From: Elusimicrobiota bacterium
GTDB taxonomy: Bacteria; Elusimicrobiota; Elusimicrobia; Elusimicrobiales; UBA9959
Assembly: GCA_019135865.1 (NCBI GenBank)
Contig: JAGVVD010000055.1
Location: forward strand, 1 to 56,336
Direction of reading: 5' to 3'
DNA length: 56,336 nucleotides
Shown: positions 32,153 through 53,151 of the stretch, in pieces
Numbering within the stretch: the first letter of the stretch is position 1
Layout: the number at the start of each line of letters is the position of its first letter
The notes under the pieces: generated by a model
The model's input: the letters and a program-made list of their open reading frames with translations, nothing else
Database searches by the model: none
What the model was told of the DNA's origin: nothing
Translations under genes and position numbers: made by a program

Positions 32153-32216
32153 GTCCGCCTCCGGTGTATCCAATATCACAGGGGATGTATCCGGCCGTCG
32201 ATTGCCGGGCGTCCTA

Positions 32217-35200
32217 ATGATTCATTATAATATCAATCGTGAGCGTCCTGGAAGACCGGGACGTTCCTTTTATGCGTTTTGCGGGGGCCATATAAAAGCA
32301 GCGGCGAGGTATTTCATCCTGACGGCGGCCGCGGTATCCCTCTCCGGGGGACCGCTCAGCGCCGCCATGCCCTCCAACCCCCGCTTCGTGACTGCGTATT
32401 CTGATCAGCTCGACGTGGCCTGGGACCTGGCCTCGCCGACGGATTCCCCGTGGGTCGCCATCTCCGCCGACCCGTCGTTCGCGGTCTGGCACTCCTCCGC
32501 GTCTTATGTCGCGGGGACGGAAGGTGTCTCCTTCAGCGCTCTCGATCCCGGCACCACCTATTATTTCAAGGTCAAGAACGCGGCCGAGCCCGATACGGAA
32601 TACACCGTCCCCGTCAGTTCCGCCACGGACCCGGTCCCGCCGTCGGCGGTCTCCGTGGCGGCGGTGTATCCCTCCAGCGTCGCGATATCCTGGGACAACG
32701 CCGGGAATTCGGCCGGCATCCTCTATTTCATAGAGGCCGCCCGCGATTCCGGCTACAGCCTGGACCTCGTCGCGGCCACTGCCGCGTGGCCCGGCGCCGG
32801 CGCATCCTTCGAACTGCCGGACCTCGGCCCGGATTCGACCTATTACATGCGCATCAGGGCGCTGGGCTTCGGTCTCACGGATTCGGCTTTCACCGCTATC
32901 GGAACGACCGTCACGCTGGCCGTGCCGCCGGCCTACCCGAACTACGACGCCGTATACTCGACCCGCGCCGCGCTCTCCTGGTCCCCCGAGGAGAATCCCT
33001 GGTGGACCGTTTACGAGACGCAGGTCTCCACGGATAACTTCGCGACCATCAATTACTCCACGCGCGCGGCCGCGGACTACTCCTATCCCTATTCGCTTAC
33101 CCCTAATACCACCCATTATTTCAAGGTCGCGGCCGTCAACGGCTACGGCCGCTATTCGGAGTTCATGACCTTCCCGTCCACGCTGACCTTTTCGGCCGCT
33201 CCCGCGCCGCACGCGGCGCCGCTTACGCTGCTGGGGGACGAGTTCAACTCGGTTTCGGCGCAATGGGCCTATAACGGCAACCCCGGTCATACCGAGTATT
33301 ATGTGCAGGCCTCTACGGCGGCGGACTTCACCGGTATGGACGCCGGCAACCCGCGCGACTGGGCCGCCGGCCTTTCGGCCGCGGTGACCCCGCTGGACCC
33401 CTCCACGCAGTATTATTTCCGCGTACGCTCGCGCGACCTCTACGGCCGGGTGAGTTCCTGGCTGGACCTGGGCTCCGTGACCACCGGCGCGGGCTCCGAC
33501 GTCTCGCCCCCGCTGATCTACGACGATCAGTCCGGGGACGCTACCTGGCGCGGGTCCTCGGGCGGGGTCTACCAGGTCTATTTCGCCGACCTGGTCTCCG
33601 GCCTGGCGGGTTTCGACGTGAAGGCGACCACGGGGCCGGACATGAACAGCCAGGAGATCGCTCCCTGGACCGCGGCCGCTTCTTTCGCCGGGGAGAACGA
33701 GTATTTCACGCCCTGGACGCTGCCGGACGCGGTATTTTCGGCCATACCGGAGAACACTACGGCGTATATCTCGGTGCGGGTCTACGACATGGAGGGCCAT
33801 GTCGCCTATTCCACCGCCCCCTTCTACGTGCGCCGCGACCTCACGCCCCCGGCGGCCGGCGCCCCTTCCGGCGCGCCGGCCGGCTGGCTCGACGCCGATC
33901 CCGGCGCCGTCTTCGTCCTGCCCTTCACGGACCCGCTTTCGGGCCTTTCCCTGGTGCAGTACAGCGCCAGCGGCAGCCAGGGGACCGGCAACGCGAACAT
34001 GATAGGCTGGACGACGATAGACGCTTTCGTCTCCTCGGCGGCCTGGTCGGGTAACTGGGGACTCAATTTCGCCGCGCTGCAGGACGCGGTCACCAGCTAC
34101 ATAAGCGTGCGGGCCTACGACGCGGCGGGGAATTACGCGCAGGTCACCGACGCCTTCCGGGTGCTCAAGAACACTATAGGACCTTCCGCCGGCGTCACCT
34201 GGCCTTCGGCCCTTTTCACCTCTTCGGCGGCGGCCATAACGGGCACCGCCGTCCCGAGCGACGGAGTTTCCGAGGTCGCGGCCGTCGAGGTGGCGCTCAG
34301 AGAGGAGAGCTCGGGCCTTTACTGGAACGGGGACGCGGCCTTCTCCTCCGCCGTTCACGCCTGGCTTTCGCCGGCCGGGCTGGGTTCCTGGTCGCTGGAC
34401 GTCTCGACGCTGCCGCTGGTCAGCCCGTCCTCCTATACCGCGGTCGTCAGGGCCATGGACGACCTGGCCCGCTGGTCGGCGGGCTATTCCACCTTCACCT
34501 TCACGCTGGACACGGACGCGCCGGCCGTATACGTCTCCACTCCGCTCCCCGACAGCCAGGTCTATTACTTCGACGAGATCTCCGGCACGGCCGCCGAGCC
34601 GGCGGGCGGGGCCGGCCTGGACCGCGTCGAGATAGCCGTGCGCCGCGCGGCCGACGGGCGCTGGTGGAACCCTTTCACCCGGTCCTGGACCTCCGCTTTC
34701 GTCTCCAGCGCCGCCGCCGGGGGAGCCTCCTGGACCTTCTCTCCCGACGCCAGGCTGCGCGGGGAACTGCTGCACGAGCTGACCTATTACGTGACGGCCT
34801 CCGCCTATGACCTGGCCTATCCGCCCAATTCCACCGGCTTCAGCGTCGAAGGTGCTACTTTCACTTATCACGACCCGACCGCGCCGGCGGCCCCCTATTC
34901 CGTTCAGGGCGCCAGCGGCACGCTGCCGGGCCGCATGGAGGTCAGCTGGGTCTTCGCCGGCGACGACGGCTCCGCCGGCTATCTGCCGCAGGGCGGCTTC
35001 GCGGTGCATTACGCGAGCTGGACCGGCTTTTCGCCCAGTACGACAGCCGCGCAGGTGCAGATCTCGACCGCGGCCCTGGAGCCGGGTACCACCGTCTCCT
35101 GCCTGGTCGCCGATCTCCGGTCGAACACCACCTACTATTTCAGGGTCTGGGCGCGCGACGACGCGGGACTCTGGTCGCCGGTCTCGGCCGAGGGACAGGG

Positions 35201-36053
35201 CGTCTCGGGTGACGAACTGGACCGCCGCATAGCCGGACATGTGCGGCTGCCCTCGGGGGCCGGCGTCACGGGGGTGCTGCTGGAGGCCGTCTCCTCCTCG
35301 GGCGAGACCGTGTCGACGGCCTATACTGTGGACGACGGCAGCGGCAGTTTCACGCTCGACGACGTGGACGACGGCATATACAGGGTGCAGGCGACCTGGG
35401 TGAGCGACGACATAGTCAGCGCCGTCTCCAAGGACGGCATACCGATGGGCTACGCGGACGCCGATTTCGTGCTCGCCACCGAGTTCCTGCTGTCCAGCGT
35501 CTCCGGGGTCATACCGGCCGGCCTGCGCACCTCCGCCCTGCGACCCTCCTCGGCCGGAGGCGCCCTCGTCACCCTGCTGCAGCTGGGCAGGCCGGTCGCC
35601 TCCGCCGCACCCGACCCCTCCGGAGGATACCGCTTTTCGGGACTGCTGCCCGGCACTTATACGCTGCGCTTCGGGAGCGGCGGCGGGTCCTCCGACTACC
35701 GGGTGACGCTGACGCCCGGTATGGAGCTTTTCTTCACCCCGCTGGCCGAACTCCTGCGCGCGGGGTCCGCTTATCTCTATCCCAATCCGGCGCGCGCCGG
35801 CGTCACTTTCCGTTTCCTTACGGACGCGGCCTCCGTGCGGCGCCAGGTCTCGGTCTTCACGCTGGACGGCCGGCTGGTGAAACGGATAACCGACGCCGAC
35901 CCCTGGACCGTCAACGGCGGGGAGCACGAGCATAAGTGGGATTTCTCCGGGGAAAGGCTGGCCCCCGGCGTCTATTTCTGTTCCCTGAAAGTGCAGGACG
36001 CCGTTTCGGGCGGGACGCGCACGAAAGTGATGAAACTGGCGGTACTACGGTGA
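32217..36053 (+). CDS. Exported FN3-repeat protein with Por/FlgD-type C-terminal tail
   Basis: About 1278 aa in this frame. Residues about 60-430 hold four FN3 domains ('PSSVAISWD', 'PDSTYYMRIRALG', 'NPGHTEYYVQAST'). Then come Ig-like blocks (about 430-930) ending DAFRVLKNTIGPS, and another FN3. A carboxypeptidase-regulatory-type domain starts near 1002 (RIAGHVRLPSGAGVTG). The C-terminal tail starts near 1185 (LYPNPARAGVTFRF) and ends APGVYFCSLKVQD ... MKLAVLR, as in FlgD-like and type IX sorting tails. The start is uncertain. ATG 32217 lies upstream of the predicted transcript, while ATG 32272 opens a signal-peptide-like start in another frame. One extra base in the G run 32283-32287 would join them. 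Confidence 0.82.
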   Translation: MIHYNINRERPGRPGRSFYAFCGGHIKAAARYFILTAAAVSLSGGPLSAAMPSNPRFVTAYSDQLDVAWDLASPTDSPWVAISADPSFAVWHSSASYVAGTEGVSFSALDPGTTYYFKVKNAAEPDTEYTVPVSSATDPVPPSAVSVAAVYPSSVAISWDNAGNSAGILYFIEAARDSGYSLDLVAATAAWPGAGASFELPDLGPDSTYYMRIRALGFGLTDSAFTAIGTTVTLAVPPAYPNYDAVYSTRAALSWSPEENPWWTVYETQVSTDNFATINYSTRAAADYSYPYSLTPNTTHYFKVAAVNGYGRYSEFMTFPSTLTFSAAPAPHAAPLTLLGDEFNSVSAQWAYNGNPGHTEYYVQASTAADFTGMDAGNPRDWAAGLSAAVTPLDPSTQYYFRVRSRDLYGRVSSWLDLGSVTTGAGSDVSPPLIYDDQSGDATWRGSSGGVYQVYFADLVSGLAGFDVKATTGPDMNSQEIAPWTAAASFAGENEYFTPWTLPDAVFSAIPENTTAYISVRVYDMEGHVAYSTAPFYVRRDLTPPAAGAPSGAPAGWLDADPGAVFVLPFTDPLSGLSLVQYSASGSQGTGNANMIGWTTIDAFVSSAAWSGNWGLNFAALQDAVTSYISVRAYDAAGNYAQVTDAFRVLKNTIGPSAGVTWPSALFTSSAAAITGTAVPSDGVSEVAAVEVALREESSGLYWNGDAAFSSAVHAWLSPAGLGSWSLDVSTLPLVSPSSYTAVVRAMDDLARWSAGYSTFTFTLDTDAPAVYVSTPLPDSQVYYFDEISGTAAEPAGGAGLDRVEIAVRRAADGRWWNPFTRSWTSAFVSSAAAGGASWTFSPDARLRGELLHELTYYVTASAYDLAYPPNSTGFSVEGATFTYHDPTAPAAPYSVQGASGTLPGRMEVSWVFAGDDGSAGYLPQGGFAVHYASWTGFSPSTTAAQVQISTAALEPGTTVSCLVADLRSNTTYYFRVWARDDAGLWSPVSAEGQGVSGDELDRRIAGHVRLPSGAGVTGVLLEAVSSSGETVSTAYTVDDGSGSFTLDDVDDGIYRVQATWVSDDIVSAVSKDGIPMGYADADFVLATEFLLSSVSGVIPAGLRTSALRPSSAGGALVTLLQLGRPVASAAPDPSGGYRFSGLLPGTYTLRFGSGGGSSDYRVTLTPGMELFFTPLAELLRAGSAYLYPNPARAGVTFRFLTDAASVRRQVSVFTLDGRLVKRITDADPWTVNGGEHEHKWDFSGERLAPGVYFCSLKVQDAVSGGTRTKVMKLAVLR
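32224..32231. promoter_or_regulatory. Symmetric -10 octamer between LUD and FN3 genes
   Basis: Second occurrence of the self-complementary ATTATAAT. On the plus strand TATAAT ends at 32231 and predicts a start at about 32238, which is downstream of ATG 32217. A plus-strand mRNA from it could begin on the GTG at 32239. Confidence 0.5.
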
Positions 36054-38530: not shown

Positions 38531-39466
38531 ATGCTGAAGATACTGGCATTACTGCCGCTGCTGGCCGCTCTCGGCGGGCCGGCCGCGGCGGCCGACACTT
38601 CGGCCGCGCAGTTCCTGCGGCTGGGCGCGGGCGCGCGGGCGCTGGGCATGGCCGGCGCCTGCGCGGCCGTGGGAGAGGGCGCGGAGGCGGCCTATTACAA
38701 CCCCGCCTCCTACGCCCAGGCCTCGCCGCGGGGCGAACTCTCCCTCTCCCATTCCTGGCACGTGCAGGATACGGGCCTCACGCACGGCGCCTACGCCAGG
38801 CGCGGCTGGGGGGCCTCGTTCACCTGGTTCTCGGCCGGGGACCTGGAAGGGCGGGACGACTCGGGTAACCCCACCGGCAGCTTCACGGCGGAGGACGCGG
38901 CCCTTTCGGCCGGCGCCGCTTTCCGCTGGCGGGGCGCGGCGGCGGGCTTCTCGCTGAAAGGGATAAGGCAGAGGATACAGGAGCGGGGCGCCACGGCGGC
39001 GGCGGCCGACCTGGGCCTGCTCTACCCGGCGGAGCCCGACGTGCCGCTGCGGCTGGGCCTGTCGGTCTCCAATCTCGGCTCGAAGATAAAGTTCGAGACC
39101 GAGGCTTACCCGCTGCCCGTGACCTGGCGCGCGGCCCTGGCCATGCGGCCGGGCCACGGCGACACTCTGCTGGCGCTGCAGGCGGACGTCCACAATGACG
39201 GCGGTTCCTCGCTCGGGGTAGGCGCGGAGGTCCGGCCCGTCGCGGAACTGGCGCTGCGCGGGGGGTACAGGACGTCGTCCTCGGAGCAGCGCGACGCGAT
39301 CCTGGGCGCGGACCTGGGGGATTCCGCGTCGGGTATGGACGGGCTCTACGGTTTCTACATGGGCCTGGGGTTCGAGATACGGGGCGTCATGCTCGACTAC
39401 GCCCTGCTCCCCTACGGCGACCTGGGCAGTTCGCACAGGTTCGCGGTGGGCATGAAGTTCGAGTGA
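38531..39466 (+). CDS. PorV/UPF0164-type outer-membrane protein
   Basis: 311 aa with a signal peptide. The mature part opens AAQFLRLGAGARALGMAGA followed by GAEAAYYNPASYA. This is the hallmark start of the PorV/PorQ/UPF0164 family of FadL-like barrels. Alternating hydrophobic strands continue to the end, and the last residues are RFAVGMKFE. In type IX secretion PorV binds the C-terminal sorting domains of cargo and carries them to the surface attachment complex. The neighbours at 32217 and 46606 carry tails of that general kind, which makes a similar role plausible but unproven. It starts 4 bp after the FecR gene. No PorK/L/M/N, PorT or Sov gene is in the window. Confidence 0.83.
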   Translation: MLKILALLPLLAALGGPAAAADTSAAQFLRLGAGARALGMAGACAAVGEGAEAAYYNPASYAQASPRGELSLSHSWHVQDTGLTHGAYARRGWGASFTWFSAGDLEGRDDSGNPTGSFTAEDAALSAGAAFRWRGAAAGFSLKGIRQRIQERGATAAAADLGLLYPAEPDVPLRLGLSVSNLGSKIKFETEAYPLPVTWRAALAMRPGHGDTLLALQADVHNDGGSSLGVGAEVRPVAELALRGGYRTSSSEQRDAILGADLGDSASGMDGLYGFYMGLGFEIRGVMLDYALLPYGDLGSSHRFAVGMKFE

Positions 39467-39535
39467 GGGACGTCCTCTTCCGGGACGTCCCTCGCCATGG
39501 ACCAGCGGCCGGATACGCCGGCCATTGATCCATGG
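39465..39535 (+). promoter_or_regulatory. Two tandem hairpins in the PorV-fibre gap
   Basis: Hairpin 1: GAGGGACGTCC (39465-39475) with GGACGTCCCTC (39483-39493). Hairpin 2: CCATGGA/TCCATGG (39495-39501, 39529-39535) enclosing GGCCGG/CCGGCC (39507-39523). There is no T tract, so they are not classic terminators. They may stabilise mRNA ends or tune expression of the fibre gene, whose SD (39553) follows at once. Confidence 0.6.
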
Positions 39536-39561
39536 GTTCTATTCGGAAGCACGGAGGATGC

Positions 39562-42500
39562 ATGAAGCGCTTCATCATGGGCGTTATCGCCTATTTCATT
39601 TTCGCCGGGGCGGCCTTCGCCGCCGGACCCCAGGTCATGACCTACCAGGGCCGCCTCAAGGAGAGCGGTCTGCCCGTCACCGGCGACCGGGATATCATCA
39701 TAACCCTGTGCGACGCTCCGTCCGCCGGCAGCTGCTATCCGGCCGTCCCTACGGCCCAGACGGTTTATGTCTCCACCGGCCTTTTCAAGTCCACCTTCAC
39801 GCTGCCCTCCGGGGCGGACCTTTCCACGGGGGAGTGGTATCTGCAGGTGAACGTCGATACCGTCGATCTCCTTCCGCGCGAGAAGCTCACCGCCGTGCCT
39901 TACGCCCTTTATTCCTCCTCCTCCGCCTACGCGGAGAACGCCGCCTCCGCCGTCCTGCGCACCGGAGACACCATGACCGGGCAGCTGACCACCGCCTCGA
40001 CCATAACGGTCAGCGGAGGGGCTTTCAGCGTCGGTGTTTCGACTTTCGTGGTGGAGGGCGGGATAGTAGGTATAAGGACCGCGTCCCCGCAGGCGGCGCT
40101 CGACGTCGTTTCCACCGGCGCGGCGGCGGGCGTGATGGCGCAGCTCTGGCGCGATTCCGGCGGGGTCATCGTCGGCTCGATGAGCGCGACCGGCGACATG
40201 CAGGCCGCGCGGTTCGTCGGCGACGGCTCGGGACTGACGGGCGTCACCGGCGCCACCGGCGACGACCCTAATGCGCTCAAGCTCGCCGGCGGCAATATGA
40301 CCGGGCAGCTGACCACCGCCTCGACCATAACGGTGCAGGGCGCCGCCTTCAGCGTCGGCGGCTCGACGCTGGTGGTGTCCGGCGGCGCGGTAGGCATAGG
40401 GGTTGCCGTCCCCACGGCCGCTTTCCAGGTGAACGGAGACTGGATAATGGGCTCCGATTCCGATTTTCCCGGCGGCGGCGTGGCCGGCTGGCTTCATTCG
40501 CCCAGCGGCGTGCTTTACGAGGGCGGCGGGGTGGCCTGGTCCCACCATTTCGCCGCCTACGGGGGCGGGGATATAGCCAGGTTCGGCGTTTCCGCCGCCA
40601 GCGGCGATACTCCGGACACAAGAGCCGTTATAACGAACGCCGGCTGGTTAGGGGTCGGCACCGGTTCTCCCGCCGCGCTGCTGCACGTCTCCAGCGCCGC
40701 CGGTGAAAGTGGCACGCTCATGGCCGTTTCCACCGGGGCGACGAATCTTTTCTGGGTGACGGGCGGCGGCGCGCACGCCTCCCGGTTCGTCGGCGACGGG
40801 TCCGGTCTTACCAATCTCCCCGTCGGCGCCATCGGCGGCGTCATCCCGGTCGCGCAGGGCGGCACCGGGCTTGCCTCGATAGCCCCGGACAATCTGATAT
40901 ACGCCTCCGCCGCCGATACTTTCGCCGCCGCTCCGCTCAGTCCTTTCGCGAGGACCTTGCTTGACGACGGGACCGTCGGAGAGGCTCGTACCACGCTGGG
41001 CCTGACGATAGGCGCCGACGTGCAGGCTTACGACGCCGACCTCGACGACCTGGCCGACGGTTCGCTGACCGGTTCCAAGGTCGGGCCCGGCGTGCCGGCC
41101 GCCAATATAGCGGACGGGGCCCTGGGCGCGAATGTCGTAGTTTCCTCTCTGGCCGTCGCCTCGGTTCACGAAGGAGCGCTCCTCAATCCCAAGCTCAACA
41201 GCAACGGGGACCAGATGGACGGCTATCTCTGGGTGCAGGGAGGGACCTTCCGGGTGCTCGCGCCCGATTCGCAGCCTTATTCCCTGGCCGCGGGCACCGG
41301 CACGGTCCCCTCGCACCTCCATGTCTCGACCATGGGCGGGGTGGGTCTCGGCACCGTAGTTCCGGAGGCCGTTCTCGACGTGCGCGGGGACATCCTGGCC
41401 CGGACCGACGGTCCCCTGGCCTATCGGTTCCTCAACGCGGCCGGGACGGACGGCGTGGTCATAGACACGTCGAACGGGGCGTTCCGGACGGCCGCGGCGG
41501 CCAGTTACTCGCTCGGCTCCCTGGCCCAGCCCTGGAAGCAGCTCGTCATCGGCGGCGGGGCGGTCTCGTCCATCGACGGCAGTCTCGGTATAGGAACATC
41601 CTCCCCGGCCACCAGGTTCCAGGTGGAGAACGGTTCCATAAGCATAACGGGCTCGGAGCCCGCGCTCCTTTTCGGGTCGGGAGAGACCCGTGTCATATCC
41701 CAGGACACCGACGCCGCCACCGGCGCCGGTATAGAGTTCTCCACCAACGTCTACATAGTGGGCTTCAGTTCGGCCGCGCGCTATTTCGGCGACGGTTCCG
41801 CGCTTACGGGCGTGCTGGGCACGGACCCCGACGCGCTGCCGCTGGCCGGCGGCGTGATGGCCGGCACCCTGGATATGGGCGGGAATTCTCTCGCCGGAGT
41901 GTCCACGATAACCGTGCTCAACGGCAGCGTAGCCATTGTTCCGCCCGGCACGGGGGGGAGCAATTACGGCTACGGCGTATCCATAGGCTCCAATGCCTAC
42001 AATAATTACGGTTCCGGCATAGGGATAGGCTATGGCGCGTACAGCAATTACGACGGCGGCGTGGGCCTGGGATCCGGCGCGTCGAATAATTACATGTACG
42101 GGGTCGGAGTAGGACTGAGCGCCGGGTTCAATTACACCTACGGCACGGGCGTGGGCCGGGACGCGACCAATAATAACAACTACGGCGTCGGCGTCGGCTA
42201 TTACGCCAGGGATAATTACACCTACGGCGTGGGGCTCGGGAACGATGCCAGCTCCAACTACAGTTATGGAGTAGGCGTGGGCAAGCAGGCAAAAAACAAC
42301 AAGTTCTACGCCGTAGGCGTGGGCGCCTATTCGCAGGATAACCAGCCTTACGGCGCGGCGCTGGGCGCTTATTCCTACGCGGCTTCTTCGTCGGTGGCGC
42401 TGGGCTACGGCGCCAGGGCGAACGCCTGGAACAGCGTGGCCATCGGCTCGGGCACGGTGAACAACTCCACCGGCACGGCCAGCTTCGGCATCCTCGGCGT

Positions 42501-45500
42501 CTACACCTCCAGCGGGGTTTACGCCGCCGAGTTCGTCGGCAACGGCTCCGGCCTGACGGGTGTAAGCTCCTCGGATAACACCAAACTTCCGCTCGCGGGC
42601 GGTACGCTGACGGGGAACCTGGCCCTGTCCGCCTCCACTATGTCCATCAACGCCACCGGGTCTTTCGCCAATTTGATCACAGCCGGTCTGACGGGCGGAG
42701 CGACGATGATCATGTACGCCGACCTGTCCTCCGCCGGGCTGTTCACGGTTAACGCCACGGATCGCCTGAAGATCGGCGCCGGTATGACCGAGACCCTTAC
42801 CGTTGCCAACGGCAGGGTCGGCATCAACAACCAGCCCTCGCCGGTGGCCGCGCTCCAGGTCAGCGGCACCACTAAGCTCCTCGCCGATCCCGCCACCGGA
42901 TACCTGCTGGTCGCGGGTTCCGCGGCGCGTCCCGACATGTTCTTTATCTCCAGCAGCGGCGTGGTGGGTGTGGGCGATTTCAGTTCTTCTCCCGCCTCCA
43001 CCGATACCCTGGTGAACATCTCGCCTGTACTCCGGTCCGGCGGCGAGATGGCGGTCGGGCTGCAGGTATACGCGCGCAGCGAGGGCGGCGGGATAGTCGC
43101 CGTCGGAGAGGAGACGGGGATCGTCGCCGCCAACTTCGAAGCGGCGGCCGACGGCGAAGATGCTATGGAGAACCTGGCAGGCCTGCGGGCGCAGATCCGC
43201 CGCGAAGGCGCGGGGAGCGGCGTCGTACAGCAGGCCGCGGCCATCTGGGTGGACGATTTCCACCATGAGGGCGGCGGCACGACGGTCAATACCTACGGTC
43301 TTCGTATCTCCAGCCTGACGGTCGCGGGACAGACCAACGCGCCTTACGCCATATACTCCGAGGACCCCGGCGCGCGCGTATACTTCGCGGGCAATGTCGG
43401 CATCAGTTCCGTGCCGGCTTACGCGCTGGCGGTCTCCAGCGCTACCGGCGACATCCTCTGGGTCTCCAGCCACGCGGTCCACGGTATGAAGTTCATCGGC
43501 GACGGTTCGGAGCTGGCGAATCTGCCGGTCCCGTCGGGCGCGGTGCAGAAGAGCGGCGACTTCATGGGCGGCCAGCTCACCACCGCCTCCACGATCACGG
43601 TGCAGGGCGACGCTTTCAGCGTCGGAGGTCCGGCTTCCTTCGCCATCAAGGGCGGCTCGGTGGCCATCGGCGTAGAGCCGGGATGGGCGCGCCTCCATCT
43701 GCTGGGCGACAATTCCGATAACGGGACTTTCGTGATGGAACAGGTCGGCGACGGCGTGGCGTCGAGGATAATGGCCAGCCGCACCAGGGGGACCCTGGGT
43801 GGAATGACCGCCGTCCAGAACGGCGATGCCATATTCGATATCAGGTACGATGGTCACGACGGCGGCAATAATGTCGATACCGATTGGATAGAGAACGCCA
43901 TTTTCCGCGGCGTGGTCGACGGGGCGGTCTCCGACGGGGTTGTCCCGATAGGTTTCGAGTTCCATACCTCCTCCGCGACCGATTCCGACCTGCACACGCG
44001 CCTGGCCATACGCAGCGACGGCCGGGTGCAGATAGGGACGACGTCCGTTTTCCCTGCCCTGTTGGAGGTCCGGGATTACGCCTCACAGTATCCCTACCTG
44101 CTGGCGCTGGGCACCGGGCCGGTCTCGAGCCAGGTCCTGGTCTCGACCTCGGGGTCCGTCGGCATAGGGGTATCCCCTTCTACCGAGTCGGTGTTCTACG
44201 CGCATAAATCCCACGGGTTCACCGCAGGCGGCGAAGAGGTGGCGCTGGGCATCCAGGCCTCCGCTTACGGCTGGGGTTCCGGGGATATGGGAGAGGAGGG
44301 CGACGCTGTAGCCGGCGCCGACTTCCACGCCAGTGTTCACAGCGACGCTTCCCTGGCTTACCTGGTCGGCATCCATACCGAAATGCGGCGGGAAGATTCG
44401 GACGGAGGCACCGGCGCCGGCACGATAGGCAAGGCCATAGGTCTCTATCTCGAAGAACTGGAAAACAAGGACGTCGGCGCCGGCGCGATAACCGACACCT
44501 ACGGCATCTATATCAGCAGCCTGACGGTCGGCAGGCAGACCAATGCTCCCTACGCGATTTATTCCGAGGACGCCGGCGCGCGCACTTACCTGGCCGGCAA
44601 CCTGGGTATCAGTTCGGCCACGCCTACGGCCGCTCTGGTGGTGTCCAGCGCGGCCGGCAGCTCGGACCTGATGCTGGTCGTTTCCACGGGCTCCTCCATC
44701 GTCTTCGGGGTCAAGGGCAACGGCGAGGTCTATACCGCCGGCAGGTTCATCGGCGACGGTTCGGGTCTGAGCAATATCAACGTTACCGGCGACGGGCTGG
44801 GGTCTCACATCGCGACTACCACGCTGCTGATGGGCCCCTATGGAATAAACACTTCCAGCAGTATCACCGCCGGCGTCTACCAGATAGCCGGCAGCACGGT
44901 GCTGGCTATGCCGCCCGGCCCGGCCAATATCGCGGTGGGCGAGGGAGCGGGCTACGCCAATGCGTCCGGCGGTTACAATCTCTTCGCCGGGGGCGATTCC
45001 GGTCGTTTCACCAGGACGGGCTCCGCCAACACACTCCTGGGCTATCGCGCCGGGTACGGCACGGACGGGGGTTCCTTCTCCAGCTCGACCGTCGTAGGCT
45101 ACGAGGCCGGCTATTTCATGGGGGCCGGGGCGGAAGGCAATACCCTGCTGGGCTGGCGTGCCGGATACGGCATCATCTCCGGCACCGGCAACATCGTCAT
45201 CGGCTACGGCCAGGGTCTGCAGTCGGGGTCCGACAACAACAAGCTGAACATCGGCGGCGTTCTCTTCGGGGACCTGGCCAGGCGGACCATCGGCATCTCC
45301 ACGAGGACCCCCAACGCCGCGCTCGACATCAATTCCTCCACCGAGTCGCCTTTCGCGCTGCTGGTCTCCACGGCTCCGGACAGGCCTATCCTGGCCGTTT
45401 CCACCGCCGGCTATGTCTACGTGGGAGGCGTCCACGATTCCACCATAACGCTCATGTCCGTCGAGGCCCGTCTCGGCGATCCTTTTCCCGGTCAGGAGGA

Positions 45501-46560
45501 TATCAGGGTGGCTTTGAGCGCCCGCGTGGATACCGACGGCAGCGGCTTCGAGGATATCGCGGCCGCCGGGAATTTCGAGGTGGAGATCAGGGAGAACGAC
45601 CTTCTGAATGCCGCGGTAGCCCTGCGCACCGCCGTAGACGCGGAGGATCTCTCCCAGGTAGGGAGAGTGATAGGGCTGCTCGTGGAACGGCCGGAGAATT
45701 CAGGGACGATCCAGCGGACCTTCGGCGTCTACATCGCCACCCAGACGGCCCTGACCGGTACCCAGAGCCAGGTCTACGGACTCTATTCCGAGGACCCCGC
45801 CGCCTATAACTACTTCGGCGGGCGGGTCGGCATAGGCACAAGTTCTCCCCAGGAAGCCCTCCAGATCGCCGAGGGCAATGTCCTGCTGGACGATGACAGG
45901 ACCATCAACTGGGGCCTTCCTCCTGCCCCCTATATAACGGGCAATGATTCCTCCGGACTCCTGGCATTCGGCCTGGCCGGGACGGAGAAGTTCAAGATAC
46001 AGGAGCCGGCGGTGACCGTGCTGAACGCCGACCTCGTCATCTCCACCAACTCCGGAAGCCGCGGCATAGTGTTCCAGGATAAGACGGTACAGACCTCGGC
46101 CCCGCCTAAAACCGTCCTCATCTACAAGCCCGCGGACACCAATATAACAAGCGACGACGTGCCGGATCTCGATCCGGACCTGCAATTCAATGTCGGCCCC
46201 GACGAAAAGTGGCAGTTCGAGGCGGTCCTTTACGCTCATACGAACGATACCGGGTTCAATACGGACTTCCGCGCCGGGCTTATCGGACCCGCCGAGAATC
46301 TGCTGCGCTGGGATTATTCCTTCTACGCGGCGGACGGTGTGGCTCAGACCTCCGGCGGCGTCCTTAACGGATATGGCGTCCGGCCGGTGGACTGGACGGC
46401 CGGCGTGATAGCCTCCGGGACCCGTCTCGTCATCCGCGGCACGATAGATTGCGCCGCCGCCGGGGGCCCCTTCGGTATTACATGGTCCCAGAATCTCGCG
46501 GGACCTTTCACTACCACGGTACTGGCCGGCAGTTATCTTAAGGCGCAGAGAGTGCGGTAA
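39562..46560 (+). CDS. Giant exported fibre-like protein with YadA-type roll
   Basis: 2332 aa. Signal peptide to about residue 21, then an N-terminal module starting PQVMTYQGRLKESGLPV and closing with EKLTAVPYALYSSS. The long stalk reuses short units. 'GDGSGLTGV'-type turns occur six times, 'TTASTITVQG.AFSVGGS' four times, and 'VGIGTASPQAAL'-type strands many times. A 12 x 14-residue roll spans 801-968. About 1787-1897 is a second Gly-rich section (NTLLGYRAGYG). Three related modules of about 100 residues end QTNAPYAIYSEDPGAR-like. A globular C terminus (about 2190-2332) follows GIVFQDKTVQTSA. All this is typical of trimeric surface or tail fibres. ATG 39562 is chosen for its SD GGAGG and signal peptide. 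Confidence 0.85.
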   Translation: MKRFIMGVIAYFIFAGAAFAAGPQVMTYQGRLKESGLPVTGDRDIIITLCDAPSAGSCYPAVPTAQTVYVSTGLFKSTFTLPSGADLSTGEWYLQVNVDTVDLLPREKLTAVPYALYSSSSAYAENAASAVLRTGDTMTGQLTTASTITVSGGAFSVGVSTFVVEGGIVGIRTASPQAALDVVSTGAAAGVMAQLWRDSGGVIVGSMSATGDMQAARFVGDGSGLTGVTGATGDDPNALKLAGGNMTGQLTTASTITVQGAAFSVGGSTLVVSGGAVGIGVAVPTAAFQVNGDWIMGSDSDFPGGGVAGWLHSPSGVLYEGGGVAWSHHFAAYGGGDIARFGVSAASGDTPDTRAVITNAGWLGVGTGSPAALLHVSSAAGESGTLMAVSTGATNLFWVTGGGAHASRFVGDGSGLTNLPVGAIGGVIPVAQGGTGLASIAPDNLIYASAADTFAAAPLSPFARTLLDDGTVGEARTTLGLTIGADVQAYDADLDDLADGSLTGSKVGPGVPAANIADGALGANVVVSSLAVASVHEGALLNPKLNSNGDQMDGYLWVQGGTFRVLAPDSQPYSLAAGTGTVPSHLHVSTMGGVGLGTVVPEAVLDVRGDILARTDGPLAYRFLNAAGTDGVVIDTSNGAFRTAAAASYSLGSLAQPWKQLVIGGGAVSSIDGSLGIGTSSPATRFQVENGSISITGSEPALLFGSGETRVISQDTDAATGAGIEFSTNVYIVGFSSAARYFGDGSALTGVLGTDPDALPLAGGVMAGTLDMGGNSLAGVSTITVLNGSVAIVPPGTGGSNYGYGVSIGSNAYNNYGSGIGIGYGAYSNYDGGVGLGSGASNNYMYGVGVGLSAGFNYTYGTGVGRDATNNNNYGVGVGYYARDNYTYGVGLGNDASSNYSYGVGVGKQAKNNKFYAVGVGAYSQDNQPYGAALGAYSYAASSSVALGYGARANAWNSVAIGSGTVNNSTGTASFGILGVYTSSGVYAAEFVGNGSGLTGVSSSDNTKLPLAGGTLTGNLALSASTMSINATGSFANLITAGLTGGATMIMYADLSSAGLFTVNATDRLKIGAGMTETLTVANGRVGINNQPSPVAALQVSGTTKLLADPATGYLLVAGSAARPDMFFISSSGVVGVGDFSSSPASTDTLVNISPVLRSGGEMAVGLQVYARSEGGGIVAVGEETGIVAANFEAAADGEDAMENLAGLRAQIRREGAGSGVVQQAAAIWVDDFHHEGGGTTVNTYGLRISSLTVAGQTNAPYAIYSEDPGARVYFAGNVGISSVPAYALAVSSATGDILWVSSHAVHGMKFIGDGSELANLPVPSGAVQKSGDFMGGQLTTASTITVQGDAFSVGGPASFAIKGGSVAIGVEPGWARLHLLGDNSDNGTFVMEQVGDGVASRIMASRTRGTLGGMTAVQNGDAIFDIRYDGHDGGNNVDTDWIENAIFRGVVDGAVSDGVVPIGFEFHTSSATDSDLHTRLAIRSDGRVQIGTTSVFPALLEVRDYASQYPYLLALGTGPVSSQVLVSTSGSVGIGVSPSTESVFYAHKSHGFTAGGEEVALGIQASAYGWGSGDMGEEGDAVAGADFHASVHSDASLAYLVGIHTEMRREDSDGGTGAGTIGKAIGLYLEELENKDVGAGAITDTYGIYISSLTVGRQTNAPYAIYSEDAGARTYLAGNLGISSATPTAALVVSSAAGSSDLMLVVSTGSSIVFGVKGNGEVYTAGRFIGDGSGLSNINVTGDGLGSHIATTTLLMGPYGINTSSSITAGVYQIAGSTVLAMPPGPANIAVGEGAGYANASGGYNLFAGGDSGRFTRTGSANTLLGYRAGYGTDGGSFSSSTVVGYEAGYFMGAGAEGNTLLGWRAGYGIISGTGNIVIGYGQGLQSGSDNNKLNIGGVLFGDLARRTIGISTRTPNAALDINSSTESPFALLVSTAPDRPILAVSTAGYVYVGGVHDSTITLMSVEARLGDPFPGQEDIRVALSARVDTDGSGFEDIAAAGNFEVEIRENDLLNAAVALRTAVDAEDLSQVGRVIGLLVERPENSGTIQRTFGVYIATQTALTGTQSQVYGLYSEDPAAYNYFGGRVGIGTSSPQEALQIAEGNVLLDDDRTINWGLPPAPYITGNDSSGLLAFGLAGTEKFKIQEPAVTVLNADLVISTNSGSRGIVFQDKTVQTSAPPKTVLIYKPADTNITSDDVPDLDPDLQFNVGPDEKWQFEAVLYAHTNDTGFNTDFRAGLIGPAENLLRWDYSFYAADGVAQTSGGVLNGYGVRPVDWTAGVIASGTRLVIRGTIDCAAAGGPFGITWSQNLAGPFTTTVLAGSYLKAQRVR
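41962..42465 (+). repeat. Twelve 14-residue repeats inside the fibre gene
   Basis: The encoded units read NYGYGVSIGSNAYN, NYGSGIGIGYGAYS, NYDGGVGLGSGASN and so on, to AWNSVAIGSGTVNN, with no gap or insertion. The pattern NY-x-Y-G-V-G-V-G-x-x-A matches the 14-residue left-handed roll of YadA heads (NSVAIG type). DNA-level identity is only moderate, so it is an old array. Confidence 0.85.
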
Positions 46561-46605: not shown

Positions 46606-49600
46606 ATGAGAAGGAACGCAACGATAGATGCTTTGTCCGCCGGCGCGCTTTTCTGCGCGCTGGCCGCAGCATGGGCCGTTCCCGTCGCCGCCGGGCAGAA
46701 GGCCGGGGGGATATATACCATCGTGGACGACGCGGTGGGGGGGCTGGCCGCGACGGAGCTGGCAGGGGGGGTCTATTCCGGCGACGGCTTCATCGGCAAC
46801 CTGGCCTCCGAGAAACTGTCGGGCGGGGCTTTCGAGGCGCAGTCCGGTTTTCATTCCCACGCCGTTTCCACTCCCTCGGCCTTCGCTTATGTCTCGGTGT
46901 CCAGCGACGCTTTCGACCTTTCCTGGCTGTACCTGCACGATCCGGGCATGGCCGACTACCTGGTACTGGTCTCCACGACGGGGACGGCGGCCGGGCACTC
47001 CTTCTCCTCCGCCACCTACGCCCTGGGTGCGGGGTTCGCCGGCCTTACCCCCAACACCACCTATTTCGCCTTCCTGCGCGCCGGCTACCTGGAAAGCGAT
47101 TTTTCGGAGTACGTGACCACCTCGGCCGTGACCACGCTGAGCATGCCGGTCTCGTCGGACACCTTCGTCTTCGGCAACGTCGGCCCGTTCTCGGCCAATC
47201 TCAAGTTCTCGGCCTTCGGCAATCCCGGGCCTTCGCAGAGCGCGGCCTGGACCGCCGCCGCGCCGCTGCCGGCGGCGCTCTACGGCCACGCTTCGGCCGT
47301 CATCTCCAGCAGGTCCTTCGTCAGCGGCGGTTACGACGGGACGCGTTTCAGCAGCGCGGTATACATGTCGGAACTGGAGCCCGACGGCGGCGGAGGCGGG
47401 TGGACGCCGGCCGGCTGGCTCCCCGAGGGCCGCTACGGCCACGCCATGGCGGCCGCCGGGGGCAGGCTCTACGTCATAGGCGGCTACGACGAAGGCGGTA
47501 CGGCGCTGGAGGTGTGGTCGGCCGACGCGAGCACTCCTTCGCATCTTTCCGAATGGCGGGCGGAGACCTCTTTCCCCTACGGAGTCTATCTGCACGCCGC
47601 GGTATCCCATAACGGTTCCATATACGTGCTGGGCGGTTTCGACGGCACCGCCCCGGTCTCCTCCGTCTATACCGCGCGTCCGGGCCCGGACGGCGCCATC
47701 GCCTCCTGGGAGCAGGAGCCGGCGGGGCTTCCCGCTCCGCTTTACGCCTTCGGCGCGGCCGAACTGGGCGGACGGCTCTACATAAGCGGCGGCAAGGACG
47801 GAGGCTCGGCCAGGTCGTGGGTCTGGAGCTCCGCTATCGACGCGGACGGGACTCTCGACGACGGGGGCTGGACCGCCGCCGGGTCGCTGCCGGCGCCGCG
47901 CTTCGCCCATACGATGACCGCTCTGGGCGACAGGCTGGTGGTGGCCGGCGGCAGCAACGGCTTCGCCGCCCAGCCCGCGGTGCTCGCGTCCGCGGCGGAC
48001 GGCGCCGGGGCCCTTTCCGCCTGGGGCCTGGCCTATGCGCTTCCCGAGGGCAGGCAGTACCACGCCGCGGTCAAGGCCGGGGGCAGGCTTTACCTGCACG
48101 GCGGGAACAACGGCGCCGCCGCTTCGGCGCTTTCCTGGTCCGCCTCTTTTTCCGGTACCGAGTACCAGGCGCGGGTCTGCGACGTCACGGGCTGCGCGGG
48201 GAGCTTCGAATATTCTTCGCCGTGGACGAGCGATTTCGCCTGGGAATTCCCGGCGCTGCTGCCCGACGGGGACTGGTTCTTCCAGGTGCGTTCGCGCAAC
48301 TGGCTCGGACAGGAAACGGCCTGGTCGGCCGAGGTCTCCACCCATACCTACGCCGCGCAGCCCTCCTCCGCGCCGTGGAGCGCGGTCGGCGTCTCCAGCC
48401 TTACCGCCAACTGGGATACCCTCGGCAATCCCGCCTCCGTCGATTATTACTGCGAGATCTCCAGTCACCCGGACTTCTCCTGGCCGGCCGGCAGCATGAC
48501 CACCGACAAGAGTTCGGCGGCTTTCGCCGGCCTGCTGCCCAGCGTGACCTATTACGCCCGCGTCAGGGCGGTGGACGGCCTGGGCCGCTATACGGGCTTC
48601 TCCGCGATAGGTCCGGGCAAGACCCTTTTCGACCCGGCCCTGGACGTGAACGATCCTTATTTCGAGGACCATCAGCCGGACGATCTTGTCTGGCGCAGCA
48701 GCAATACCTTCGCCTACGACGTGGATATTTTCGACGACGGCGGCTCCATGCTCTCGTTCTTCGAAGTGCGCGTGGCCACCGATACCGGCGGGGCGGGGGA
48801 TATGAGCGGCTGGGTGACCGCGGTCAGCGCCATAAACGCCAATGAATACACCGGGGACTGGTCCCTGCCCTGGGACGTCTGGGACGCGCTGCCGGAAGGC
48901 GCGACCGGCTACGTCTCGGCGCGGGCTTACGACGGTGTCGCCCGTTCCAGTACCGCCGTCGATCTCTTCGCGGTCCTCAAGGACACCACGGCCCCGGCCA
49001 TCGCGCTGCTGCACGGCTCCACGCCTGCCTGGCAGGACCAGTACCCGGGCGATCCTTCGGCCGATTTCTCCGACTATGTCTCCGGCCTGTCTAAATTGCA
49101 GTACAGCGTCAGCCCGCTGGCCCTTTCCGGCGACGCTTCGGCCGTACCGTGGACCGATATCGGGGCCTTCTCCCAGGGGGACAAGGAGGCCCTCGCCGTC
49201 TCCTGGACCTACGATTTCACGAAGCTCTCCAACGCGACCACCAACTACTTCAGCCTCAGGGCCGTGGACGTGGCGGGCGGCACCCGCACCGTTACCGACG
49301 CCTTCTACGTGCTCAAGAACGTGGCGGGTCCGGTGGTCACCATCAGCACGCCGACGGGGGTGTACCTTTCCAGTTTCACCCTGGTGCGCGGCTACAATAC
49401 CGAGACGGACGGCAGGACCGTCATGCAGACGCAGGTCTTCGTCCGCGACAGGACTACGGGACTCTACTGGGACGGTTCCGCTTTCATCTCCGCTTCCCGC
49501 TTCTGGCACGTGGCCTCCGGGACCTATCCTTTCGTTTTCGAGCCGGCCAATATGAGCCTCGCGCAGGGGCATCAGTACGAGGCCGTCGCCCGCTCCTCCG

Positions 49601-51213
49601 ATTCGCTGGGGGATTTCTCTCAGGCCTTGGCGACGGCCGCCTTTACCTACGACGGGCTGCCCCCGGCGGCGGGCGTCATCTTCCCGGCGGACGGGTCCGC
49701 GGCCGATTCGCCGCTCCGCATCAACGGCACGGCCTCCGACTCCGTCTCCAGCGTCAGTTCAGTGCGCCTGGCGCTCAAGCGCGTTTCGGACGGCCTCTGG
49801 TGGGACGGGGTCTCCTGGCAGGCCGCCCCGACGGAACTGACGGCGGGGACCACCGCCGAATGGAGCTTCTCCTTCAACTCCATACTCCGGGCCAATCTGG
49901 CGCACCAGGCCAGCTACTACGCCACCGTCCTGGCGCATGACTCCGCTTACCCCAAGAACGAGGGGAAGTTCTTCGTTCACGGGTCCACTTTCGTCTACCG
50001 CGACGTGACCGCGCCGGGCGCCGTCGCCGACCTGGCCGCTTCGCGGGGGAGCCTGCCGGGAACTATACGCCTGGAATGGACCTCGCCTGGCGACGACGGA
50101 GCGGCGGGCCTGTTCCCCGCGGGTTCGTACGCCGTGCACAGGGCCACCTGGGCGGGAGCCTCCTTCTCCACCGCTTCGGCGCAGATCTCCTTCTCCACTT
50201 CCGGGGTCGCCGCGGGTTCGGCCGCCGGCTGGACGGCGGCGGGCCTGCTGCCCTCGGCCTCCTACTATTTCTCGGTCTGGGCGCGCGACGACGCCGGGAA
50301 CTGGTCTGCCGCCTCCAATGTCGCCGGAGCCGAGACCTCCCAGGCCAGTCCCGGTTTTATAAGCGGCGCGGTGCGGCAGTCCGACGGCTCCGCCATACAG
50401 GGAGTACTGGTGGACGTCTTCGGCGCCGACGGACTGCTCAAAGCCGGCGACAGCACCGACGCTTTCGGCGCCTACGAGGTCACCGGGCTGGACATAGGTG
50501 ACTTCACCGTGCGCGCCACCTGGTCGGCCGACGACATAGTCAGTTATGTTTCCAAGGACGCCATCCCATCGGGCACGCTGGGCGTGGATTTCGCGCTGAG
50601 CATCTCCTACCAGCTGGCCTCGGTCTCCGGCACGATACCGGCGGCCGCCGGCGCGCTCTCCGCGAAAGGCGGCATCCGGCCGGCGGACGCCGGCGGCACG
50701 GGCCTCTGGGTGGAAATTTACAAGCTGGGCCGGCTGGTGGCCCGCGCCGAAGCGGACTCCGCCGGGCGTTTCTCGGTCTCCAACCTGCTGCCCGGCACCT
50801 ATTCGCTGCGCGCTTATAACGGCAGCGAGTACACCGACCCGGTGACCGTCAAGCTGGCGCAGGGACAGGACTATTTCTTCCGCCCGGCCTGGGCCGCCCT
50901 GGCGAGGGACAGCGTATTCGCCTATCCCAATCCGGCCCGCACCCAGGCCTATATACATTTCCACACCGGCCTGGGACTGGCGGGAATACGCGCCGACATA
51001 GCGGTATTCGACCTGACGGGCCGGCTGGTCAAACGCTTCACCGCCGCCGACGCGGAGCCCGATCCCGCCTACGCGGGCGGCGGCTACAGGGTGACCTGGG
51101 ACCTGGAACGGGACCGGGTCGCGCCCGGCGTATACTTCTATTCGGTGGAAGCGGAGGGCGTGGCGGGAGAGAAGGCCGAGAAAGTCGTGAGGAAATTGGC
51201 GGTAATAAGATAA
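46606..51213 (+). CDS. Exported FN3 protein with inserted kelch propeller and Por/FlgD-type tail
   Basis: 1535 aa with a signal peptide. It starts with FN3 at about 85-185. A second FN3 begins near 187 and breaks off at SAFGNPGPSQ. Six kelch repeats follow (about 215-510; for example GRYGHAMAAAGGRLYVIGGY). The FN3 then resumes with TEYQARVCDVTGCAGS and ends VRSRNWLGQETAWS. More FN3 and Ig-like blocks run to about 1240. A carboxypeptidase-regulatory-type domain starts near 1250 and a sorting-type tail near 1439 (FAYPNPARTQAYIHF ... APGVYFYSVEAEG). The ends and domain order match the protein at 32217, so the two are paralogues; the kelch part is extra. The ATG has no good SD. It is probably surface-exposed and ligand-binding. 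Confidence 0.85.
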   Translation: MRRNATIDALSAGALFCALAAAWAVPVAAGQKAGGIYTIVDDAVGGLAATELAGGVYSGDGFIGNLASEKLSGGAFEAQSGFHSHAVSTPSAFAYVSVSSDAFDLSWLYLHDPGMADYLVLVSTTGTAAGHSFSSATYALGAGFAGLTPNTTYFAFLRAGYLESDFSEYVTTSAVTTLSMPVSSDTFVFGNVGPFSANLKFSAFGNPGPSQSAAWTAAAPLPAALYGHASAVISSRSFVSGGYDGTRFSSAVYMSELEPDGGGGGWTPAGWLPEGRYGHAMAAAGGRLYVIGGYDEGGTALEVWSADASTPSHLSEWRAETSFPYGVYLHAAVSHNGSIYVLGGFDGTAPVSSVYTARPGPDGAIASWEQEPAGLPAPLYAFGAAELGGRLYISGGKDGGSARSWVWSSAIDADGTLDDGGWTAAGSLPAPRFAHTMTALGDRLVVAGGSNGFAAQPAVLASAADGAGALSAWGLAYALPEGRQYHAAVKAGGRLYLHGGNNGAAASALSWSASFSGTEYQARVCDVTGCAGSFEYSSPWTSDFAWEFPALLPDGDWFFQVRSRNWLGQETAWSAEVSTHTYAAQPSSAPWSAVGVSSLTANWDTLGNPASVDYYCEISSHPDFSWPAGSMTTDKSSAAFAGLLPSVTYYARVRAVDGLGRYTGFSAIGPGKTLFDPALDVNDPYFEDHQPDDLVWRSSNTFAYDVDIFDDGGSMLSFFEVRVATDTGGAGDMSGWVTAVSAINANEYTGDWSLPWDVWDALPEGATGYVSARAYDGVARSSTAVDLFAVLKDTTAPAIALLHGSTPAWQDQYPGDPSADFSDYVSGLSKLQYSVSPLALSGDASAVPWTDIGAFSQGDKEALAVSWTYDFTKLSNATTNYFSLRAVDVAGGTRTVTDAFYVLKNVAGPVVTISTPTGVYLSSFTLVRGYNTETDGRTVMQTQVFVRDRTTGLYWDGSAFISASRFWHVASGTYPFVFEPANMSLAQGHQYEAVARSSDSLGDFSQALATAAFTYDGLPPAAGVIFPADGSAADSPLRINGTASDSVSSVSSVRLALKRVSDGLWWDGVSWQAAPTELTAGTTAEWSFSFNSILRANLAHQASYYATVLAHDSAYPKNEGKFFVHGSTFVYRDVTAPGAVADLAASRGSLPGTIRLEWTSPGDDGAAGLFPAGSYAVHRATWAGASFSTASAQISFSTSGVAAGSAAGWTAAGLLPSASYYFSVWARDDAGNWSAASNVAGAETSQASPGFISGAVRQSDGSAIQGVLVDVFGADGLLKAGDSTDAFGAYEVTGLDIGDFTVRATWSADDIVSYVSKDAIPSGTLGVDFALSISYQLASVSGTIPAAAGALSAKGGIRPADAGGTGLWVEIYKLGRLVARAEADSAGRFSVSNLLPGTYSLRAYNGSEYTDPVTVKLAQGQDYFFRPAWAALARDSVFAYPNPARTQAYIHFHTGLGLAGIRADIAVFDLTGRLVKRFTAADAEPDPAYAGGGYRVTWDLERDRVAPGVYFYSVEAEGVAGEKAEKVVRKLAVIR

Positions 51214-51243: not shown

Positions 51244-53151
51244 ATGAAAAGGATACACGTTATATTCGGATTGCTGCTGGCGGCCTCCGCGCCGGCCCTG
51301 GCCAACCAGGCCGTCAGCCTGCAGTTCACGGTGGCGGCCCCGGACCCCGTCATGGCCGGGGACGAGGTCGTGTTCCAGACCCTGGTCGTCAATACCGGCG
51401 CGGCTCCCTGGCGCGGGGGGAACTACTACTGGGTGGCCGAAGTTTACGCGCTCGACGGCGGCGAGCGGCGCTTCATGGCCAAGACGGATACCCTGACCCC
51501 TCCGGAGGACGTGCCGGCCGGCGGCGCGGCCGGCGCCAGGCTGCCCTTCACGGTGCCCGACAATCTCAAGAACACCCGCCTGCTCTACCGCGTCTTCCTG
51601 ATACTCGACGGGCGCCGCATACTCGAGACCGACTATAAGGGCTTCGCCGTCATCGAGAAGGAGTTCCGGCCGCCGCCGCCGGAAGATTTCAAGGTCGGCG
51701 GCGACGTCACCTTCAGCTACCGCAATTCCAGCTCCGACGGCTGGGACAATCACCAGGGCATCACCTCGGCCAACATCGTCGGGAAGGTGAAGAGCTCCTC
51801 GTTCCTTTTCAACAGTTATGTGGTCCACACCCGGCGCCGTCCGCTGGACCCCACGGTCCTTCTGCTCAATTTCTACGCGCCCTGGGGGACGCTCGGGGTG
51901 GGCGATATCTCGCCCTCGCTGACCCCGCTGAGCATGGAGGGCCAGGGTATGCGCGGCGTCTCCTTCGAACGGCAGCGCGAGCGCCTCTCCCTGACCGCCC
52001 TGGCCGGCCGCACCGTGGAGGCCGAGGACCCCGACGGGCTGAGCGCGGGCCGCTTCGCCCGCTACAGCGGCGGAGGCAAGGTCTCCTATGAGCTGACCGA
52101 CGACCTCAAACTGACCGCGGACGCGGTGATAACCCGCGACGACCGGTATTCCATCAGCCCCTCCACTTCCGCCGCGCTGACGCCCGAAGGGAACATGGTC
52201 TACGGCGGCGCCGCCGAGTGGACCTTCGCCGAAGGCTTCACCTACGCCGGCGAAATGCAGTTCGCGTCCTACAAGCCGGACGCCTCCTCCTCCGCCGGGG
52301 CCACCAGCGGTTCCGCCCTGCGCAACGAACTGCGCTACCGGGGTTCCCTGCTCTCGGCGCGCGCCGCCTTCAGCCGGATAGCGGCGGGCTTCGCCTCGCT
52401 GTCGAGCCCCGCCGTCATCCCCGACCGGCAGAACCAGGACGCCGAACTGACGGTCTACGCCTCGGACAGGCTCACGCTCTCCGGCTCCTATAACAGTTAC
52501 ACGGACAACCTGGAGAACGACCCGGCCAAGACCAGGACGACCCAGACCCAGACGGGCCTCTCCGGCGCGCTGAAACTTTTCAGGGCCACGCTGGTCAATC
52601 TCTCGCTGATGAACAACTCGAGCGTGGGCGAGCCCAGCACCGTGCAGGACAACCAGACCACGACGATGAACCTGACCGTCACGCAGCCGCTCCGGGACCA
52701 TACGCTCAACTTCGGGATGCAGACCAGCGAGTTCACCGACAATACCGGCCTCTCGCACGACCTGTCCTCTTCCCTGCTCTCGCTGAGCGGGGCCTTCCGG
52801 CTGAGCTCGCGGCTCTCGGCCTCGGCCGGCTTCGTCAGTTCGGGTTCGGAGGACCAGGTGGACTCCTCGAAGACGGAGAACACCTCGCTGACCGCCAATC
52901 TCACCTACGCGCTGCCCGCCAGGGCGCTGGCTTTCCAGCTCTGGGGCACCATGAACTCGGGGGAGAGCGATTCCCCGGTCTCCCCGTCGGAAACCTCCAC
53001 GCTGACCGTGAACCTGGAGACGATCTGGCTCAAGAGCAGGGTCTCCAAGTTCGTTTTCGGCCTGGGCGTTTCGTCGCGCACCGACAAGCTCGAACCCGCC
53101 AACGACCTCAGCCAGCTGACCGTGCTGACCCGCTATAATTACTCGTTCTGA
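51244..53151 (+). CDS. Outer-membrane beta-barrel protein
   Basis: 635 aa with a signal peptide (IFGLLLAASAPALA). Residues 20-150 form an Ig-like periplasmic domain (FTVAAPDPVMAGDEVVFQTL ... RLLYRVFLILDGRRILE). From about 155 to the end, short amphipathic strands alternate with polar loops (KVSYELTDDLKLTADAVITR). The C terminus TVLTRYNYSF ends in Phe after aromatic residues at alternate positions, the usual BAM insertion signal. No substrate is indicated. It is the last gene of the surface run, 30 bp after the kelch protein, and a terminator follows. It may be an export channel or anchor for the neighbouring giant proteins; that is inference only. Confidence 0.8.
   Translation: MKRIHVIFGLLLAASAPALANQAVSLQFTVAAPDPVMAGDEVVFQTLVVNTGAAPWRGGNYYWVAEVYALDGGERRFMAKTDTLTPPEDVPAGGAAGARLPFTVPDNLKNTRLLYRVFLILDGRRILETDYKGFAVIEKEFRPPPPEDFKVGGDVTFSYRNSSSDGWDNHQGITSANIVGKVKSSSFLFNSYVVHTRRRPLDPTVLLLNFYAPWGTLGVGDISPSLTPLSMEGQGMRGVSFERQRERLSLTALAGRTVEAEDPDGLSAGRFARYSGGGKVSYELTDDLKLTADAVITRDDRYSISPSTSAALTPEGNMVYGGAAEWTFAEGFTYAGEMQFASYKPDASSSAGATSGSALRNELRYRGSLLSARAAFSRIAAGFASLSSPAVIPDRQNQDAELTVYASDRLTLSGSYNSYTDNLENDPAKTRTTQTQTGLSGALKLFRATLVNLSLMNNSSVGEPSTVQDNQTTTMNLTVTQPLRDHTLNFGMQTSEFTDNTGLSHDLSSSLLSLSGAFRLSSRLSASAGFVSSGSEDQVDSSKTENTSLTANLTYALPARALAFQLWGTMNSGESDSPVSPSETSTLTVNLETIWLKSRVSKFVFGLGVSSRTDKLEPANDLSQLTVLTRYNYSF

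Follow-up and report, generated by a model that had tools for sequence, protein, structure and literature searches.

The exported protein P0001 of an Elusimicrobiota bacterium very probably carries a whole kelch propeller inside one FN3 domain, which is split between strands B and C. Strand counts in a predicted structure and a profile alignment are the basis of this reading, which we hold to be the best explanation of the observations as a whole. P0001 would be a clear example from nature of an FN3 domain that takes up an entire propeller in one loop, long kept across families. The gene lies in the window, by which we mean the whole stretch of 56,336 nucleotides that was analysed. The window lies on a contig of a 2.95-Mb genome, and the relatives named below are Elusimicrobiota metagenome assemblies. 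The protein is ordered as a signal-peptide-like start, a first FN3, the split FN3, a third FN3, further beta domains, a carboxypeptidase-regulatory-like domain and a tail (Table 1). P0001 is 39-75% identical to relatives with the same gene order across most of its length.

The kelch insert and its FN3 host

The FN3 chain of P0001 breaks off at SAFGNPGPS (residue 210, base 47235) and restarts at GTEYQARVCDVTGC (residue 517, base 48154). Both points had been named in an earlier sequence-only reading, and both are found within the single open frame of the gene. The flanks of the kelch region match Pfam fn3 neither separately nor when joined. Because this model is too insensitive on the P0001 flanks, a profile specific to the clade was derived from 192 intact FN3 domains found in these proteins. 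Homologues of the first FN3 match the FN3 profile at about positions 2-86 with 56-74 bits. When the 32 upstream residues are joined to the C-terminal part of the split domain, the match extends to positions 3-87 and the score rises by 11.5 bits to 43.2 bits. Shuffling the N-terminal part as a control gave a mean of 33.8 and a maximum of 36.8 bits. In 29 homologues, the insert is found at the same place with a length of 300-307 where measured. In nearly all of them, the FN3 breaks at the same profile position and the downstream part is without positions 1-24. The gain from joining is clear in P0001, its closest relative and the giant homologues, and lies within the shuffled range in several others. 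In one giant homologue (L043), Pfam fn3 gives no match to the N-terminal part, 20.8 bits to the C-terminal part and 29.4 bits to the two joined (positions 2-83 of 84), the cut-off being 25 bits.

Residues 85-672 of P0001 were modelled with AlphaFold2 together with 12 relatives, and the P0001 model has a mean pLDDT of 83.8 and a pTM of 0.79. Two of its strands separate the first FN3 from the kelch region and five separate the latter from the third FN3; together these make up the seven strands of one FN3. The sequence-only reading had likewise placed the propeller inside one FN3, and two complete FN3 domains flanking the propeller, the finding that would have spoken against it, are not seen. That the propeller merely lies in line between two complete FN3 domains, the split being a boundary artefact, is barely credible and already contradicted: the missing Pfam fn3 matches on both P0001 flanks would leave room for other folds there, but no more than 32 residues and two strands stand before the kelch, compared with five strands after it, the downstream part starts at profile position 25 in nearly all of the 29 homologues, and the joined halves of L043 exceed the Pfam cut-off whereas neither half alone does. 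The B-C loop, where a single split FN3 would hold the insert, shares its end of the FN3 domain with the D-E and F-G loops, the binding loops of engineered FN3 scaffolds.

The insert consists of six blades of 44-54 residues apiece with a W at every start. The blades are four-stranded, measure about 50 residues each and carry GG and W motifs, as expected of a six-bladed kelch propeller. Pfam kelch models score 71-89 bits on this stretch; Kelch_1, Kelch_2, Kelch_6 and PF24681 all exceed their Pfam cut-offs. Model residues 126-433 resemble the solved kelch domains of NS1-BP, LZTR1, KLHL12 and Keap1 with Z-scores of 30-32 over 256-288 residues, far beyond chance, the best being NS1-BP (Z 32.4, rmsd 2.3, 274 residues). 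As modelled, the insert is a complete closed six-bladed kelch propeller. Pfam, AlphaFold2 and the PDB comparison agree here with the six repeats of a complete propeller that had been read from the sequence, and the earlier coordinates (47230-48200) enclose the true insert. The insert opens with strand d, the W-bearing outermost strand of the last blade, and closes after strand c of blade six, so that the last blade would be closed by the first strand of the insert. Since the propeller ends are strands d and c of the last blade, known kelch topology would put both ends on the same face.

Table 1. Features of the kelch gene P0001 and two further genes in the window (window positions; aa, amino acid residues of P0001)
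Feature	Window positions	Strand	Residues	Evidence or remark
Kelch-free paralogue P0002, four intact FN3	32058-36053 (start may be ATG near 32217)	+
P0001 gene, 1535-aa exported multidomain protein	46606-51213	+		Single open frame
Probable Sec signal peptide	46606-46695	+	about 1-30	Hydrophobic ALFCALAAAWAVPVAAG, by eye from sequence
First FN3, intact	46858-47139	+	85-178	AlphaFold strands at model residues 7-77
Split FN3, N-terminal part, predicted strands A and B	47140-47235	+	179-210	Two model strands (104-108, 113-116)
Kelch propeller insert, six blades	47236-48153	+	211-516	Pfam kelch models, blade coordinates, PDB comparison Z 32.4
Kelch blades 1-3	47248-47400, 47401-47553, 47554-47706	+	215-265, 266-316, 317-367
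Kelch blades 4-6	47707-47868, 47869-48021, 48022-48153	+	368-421, 422-472, 473-516
Split FN3, C-terminal part, predicted strands C to G	48154-48354	+	517-583	FN3 profile 25-87 only, 31.7 bits; five model strands (435-496)
Third FN3, intact	48355-48627	+	584-674	Pfam fn3 46.9 bits, residues 591-662
Carboxypeptidase-regulatory-like domain	50359-50598	+	1252-1331	PF13620 42.6 bits
C-terminal tail resembling type IX secretion type A sorting domain	50923-51210	+		TIGR04183 27.1 bits, cut-off 23
635-aa neighbour, no Pfam family	51244-53151	+		Beside kelch gene in relatives of the 1.5-kaa type whose contig reaches it

Gene neighbourhood and age of the insertion

The gene order around P0001 is kept in relatives and comprises the kelch-free paralogue, CARDB and FecR proteins, a PorV-like protein, a 2342-aa repeat protein, the kelch gene and the 635-aa gene. 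The PorV/UPF0164-like protein (38531-39466) scores slightly under the cut-off. The fibre-like 2342-aa protein (39532-46560) contains many GDGSGLTGV-type and YGVGVG-type repeats; it is variable among relatives and constant in its place in the gene order. The 635-aa neighbour is 55-60% identical among relatives, compared with about 43% for the kelch protein, and is perhaps the outer-membrane partner of the latter. By TIGR04183, the tail of P0001 resembles a type A sorting domain as carried by type IX cargo, and sorting-type tails occur at 16 places in the window's genome. SprA (PF14349) and the PorU/C25 peptidase (PF01364) gave no match in this genome, nor did they in control genomes. The PorU model was matched in the window's genome by its C-terminal tail only. 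The same sorting-type tail is also found on an open frame of 16,223 codons near position 24880 of G000:C54, in the window's own genome.

The search covered 341 genomes of the phylum. Of the 59 genomes of the window's family, 33 have the whole kelch-in-FN3 arrangement; five more genomes with it belong to two other families of this class, f13 and f14, in which a junction reads, for example, VGPNSASLSWSANGARSGE / kelch / LGTLYSVERASD. The insertion, for which a look at relatives had been proposed as a check, is thus found in three families. Its presence is patchy, and two complete genomes of the window's genus are without it. The occurrence in three families suggests that the insertion into FN3 was probably a single and old event, not a recent one. 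In the insert, third-position GC amounts to 0.859; elsewhere in the gene, where measured, it is 0.846-0.865, and this likeness to the flanks gives no sign of recent transfer. Direct repeats at the insert junctions are at most 9 bases long, GC-rich and not meaningful.

The paralogue had been described from the sequence as having intact FN3 domains, and four of them are matched by the profile in P0002 (positions 2-86, 2-87, 3-87 and 11-87), with no kelch. The same holds for all 12 kelch-free paralogues (12/12), which have four intact FN3 and no propeller; one of them shows a single stray match to a blade model. A tree of the shared C-terminal part, with kelch-bearing copies of three families, is unrooted and has no outgroup; it places kelch-free and kelch-bearing copies on opposite sides with support of 99/98. 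This fits one kelch insertion, later than the duplication and earlier than the split of the families. The earlier claim that the propeller was "inserted later" agrees with the tree in the sense of after the duplication, but does not hold in the sense of recently: at least three families had yet to diverge when the propeller was inserted, and third-position GC is unchanged.

The opposite course, in which the kelch-free paralogue lost a propeller instead of the other copy gaining one, is improbable. It draws on the tree being unrooted and on the strong f13/f14 matches, which are of the kelch-bearing type as far as they are placed on the tree. However, kelch-free copies are not nested within kelch-bearing ones (99/98), and the general state of the FN3 fold is uninterrupted, both of which favour a gain. 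A P0001 copy without kelch was sought in genomes that lack a kelch match, and the matches there resemble the paralogue or giant-repeat proteins in frame length and identity. A search with 17 diverse rows yielded no stretch conserved enough to serve as query; a closer set worked. L002:288-2606 (G000:C19) encodes a free-standing kelch protein (772 aa, six blades) whose tail is of the same type. In its kelch part it falls together with the nested class I propellers (see below) and could reflect their source.

Giant homologues and a second kelch lineage

A high propensity for huge proteins has been reported for several bacterial phyla, Elusimicrobia among them (PMC11573180). Homologues of 2,200-12,133 aa contain the same split FN3. 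In L043, where the C-terminus was read, about 1,400 residues separate it from the split FN3, which has thousands of other residues in front of it. The idea that the propeller sits at the tip of a fibre suits the 1535-aa P0001, with its insert near the free N-terminus and a sorting-type tail at the C-terminus, but does not extend to the giant homologues, given the position in L043. P0001 offers a first handle on these unannotated giant surface proteins of Elusimicrobiota.

Upstream of the split FN3, some giants carry many propellers of another kelch lineage. This lineage (class II) is separated from that of the nested propellers (class I) at 100/100. An 8,490-aa frame of G044 contains at least eleven class II propellers plus one. 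Class II tandem giants include L044, L045 (G044:C52:113000-140000), L048-L055, L057 and L059, with about 470 residues per unit. After each class II propeller comes just the second half of an FN3 (profile about 47-87), a sign that these propellers may be nested as well, at another FN3 loop. Joining their flanks changes the FN3 score by a mean of -0.9 bits, compared with -1.6 for shuffled flanks. A model of a class II unit (L033, three rows) has a mean pLDDT of 61.7 and is poor outside the kelch, with most FN3 parts below 50. It is conceivable, and we propose it tentatively, that Elusimicrobiota FN3 loops are recurrent docking sites, with class I (in the B-C loop) and class II propellers each nested in FN3. 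If this is true, chains of at least 12 propellers would be mounted on a load-bearing FN3 string, giving a modular multi-receptor display. A further tandem arrangement is seen in L076 and L080 of families f11 and f12. There, a beta domain and a CFGPYYPQDN...PP linker stand between successive six-bladed kelch units, of which a partial frame of 2,404 aa contains up to six.

Possible function and comparison with known systems

In the proposed mechanism, P0001 would be an exported surface protein of Elusimicrobiota with one FN3, ordinary in other respects, whose B-C loop accommodates the propeller. Two short linkers would hold it on the FN3, whose sandwich would close underneath. The FN3 string would serve as stalk and load path, and the C-terminal tail would anchor or export the protein. 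The propeller would then form a side branch with its opposite face, made of the D-A and B-C loops, free to bind a ligand. P0001 would show in this way how a candidate binding head can join a fibre while the load-carrying chain is unbroken. This is relevant to adhesin evolution and to engineered FN3 scaffolds that use the B-C loop for binding. We infer surface display, the choice of the free face, and binding of a peptide or glycan ligand for adhesion or capture. Conservation is higher in the D-A and B-C loops than in the A-B and C-D loops (P = 1.5e-4), a difference to which the kelch consensus itself contributes in part. Binding of glycans or peptides for attachment or capture is the likeliest use of the propeller, and one we consider fairly probable; the ligand binding proposed in the sequence-only reading is a reasonable suggestion.

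The propeller may instead have no ligand and act as a spacer, or stiffen or shield the stalk as a bulky side branch. This is unlikely but retains some weight, since identity over the propeller is about 40% between genera, which leaves much of the surface variable, and giant homologues contain many propellers in tandem. Against such a purely structural role, the D-A and B-C loops retain charged and polar residues, such as Q in 27/28, D in 28/28, and R or K in 28/28 at one site. An enzymatic propeller, either a NanM-like sialic-acid mutarotase or a galactose-oxidase-like kelch, is very unlikely. The similarity to NanM-type models (26 bits for PF24996 and 19.5 bits for TIGR03548) is far under the curated cut-offs (45 and 243, respectively), which P0001 does not reach for membership in the NanM or cyclically permuted mutarotase families. 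Moreover, the best structural matches are protein-binding kelch domains, though these dominate the PDB. The preferred reading of the propeller is that of a binding module.

Several known proteins share parts of this architecture. The kelch domains of NS1-BP, LZTR1, KLHL12 and Keap1 belong to eukaryotic intracellular proteins. They are six-bladed propellers like that of P0001 but are only about 20-25% identical to it, and the propeller of P0001 is set into a loop of an FN3 domain in a bacterial protein that is exported. The extracellular domains of ROS1 and Sevenless, which are among the Foldseek matches, combine propellers and FN3 in one chain as P0001 does, but their whole-chain TM-scores are low (0.2-0.28). 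No precedent of a published kelch propeller nested in FN3 was found in the open-licence papers searched, and a solved one could have been missed because the fold searches were filled by kelch domains.

Insertion of a binding domain into a stalk domain is seen elsewhere with other folds. The pilus tip adhesin RrgA of Streptococcus pneumoniae has its adhesive domain set into the Ig-like domains of the stalk, close to the tip. Unlike in P0001, this domain has a VWA fold and is part of a sortase-anchored Gram-positive pilus. In the integrin beta subunit, the beta-I domain is inserted in the hybrid domain (PMC4779853). As in P0001, with its candidate binding head, a ligand-binding domain is held in a beta-sandwich stalk domain by two linkers, but the inserted domain has a VWA fold, not a propeller, and there is no relation by descent. 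The integrin alpha-I domain likewise created a new binding head through one domain inserted in another (PMC10518620). The nesting is the reverse of that in P0001, since the integrin propeller is the host and the VWA domain the insert. Propellers, FN3 domains and the nesting of domains in beta-sandwich stalks are thus known from other systems, and the combination of a kelch propeller within an FN3 domain appears, from the papers searched, to be new.
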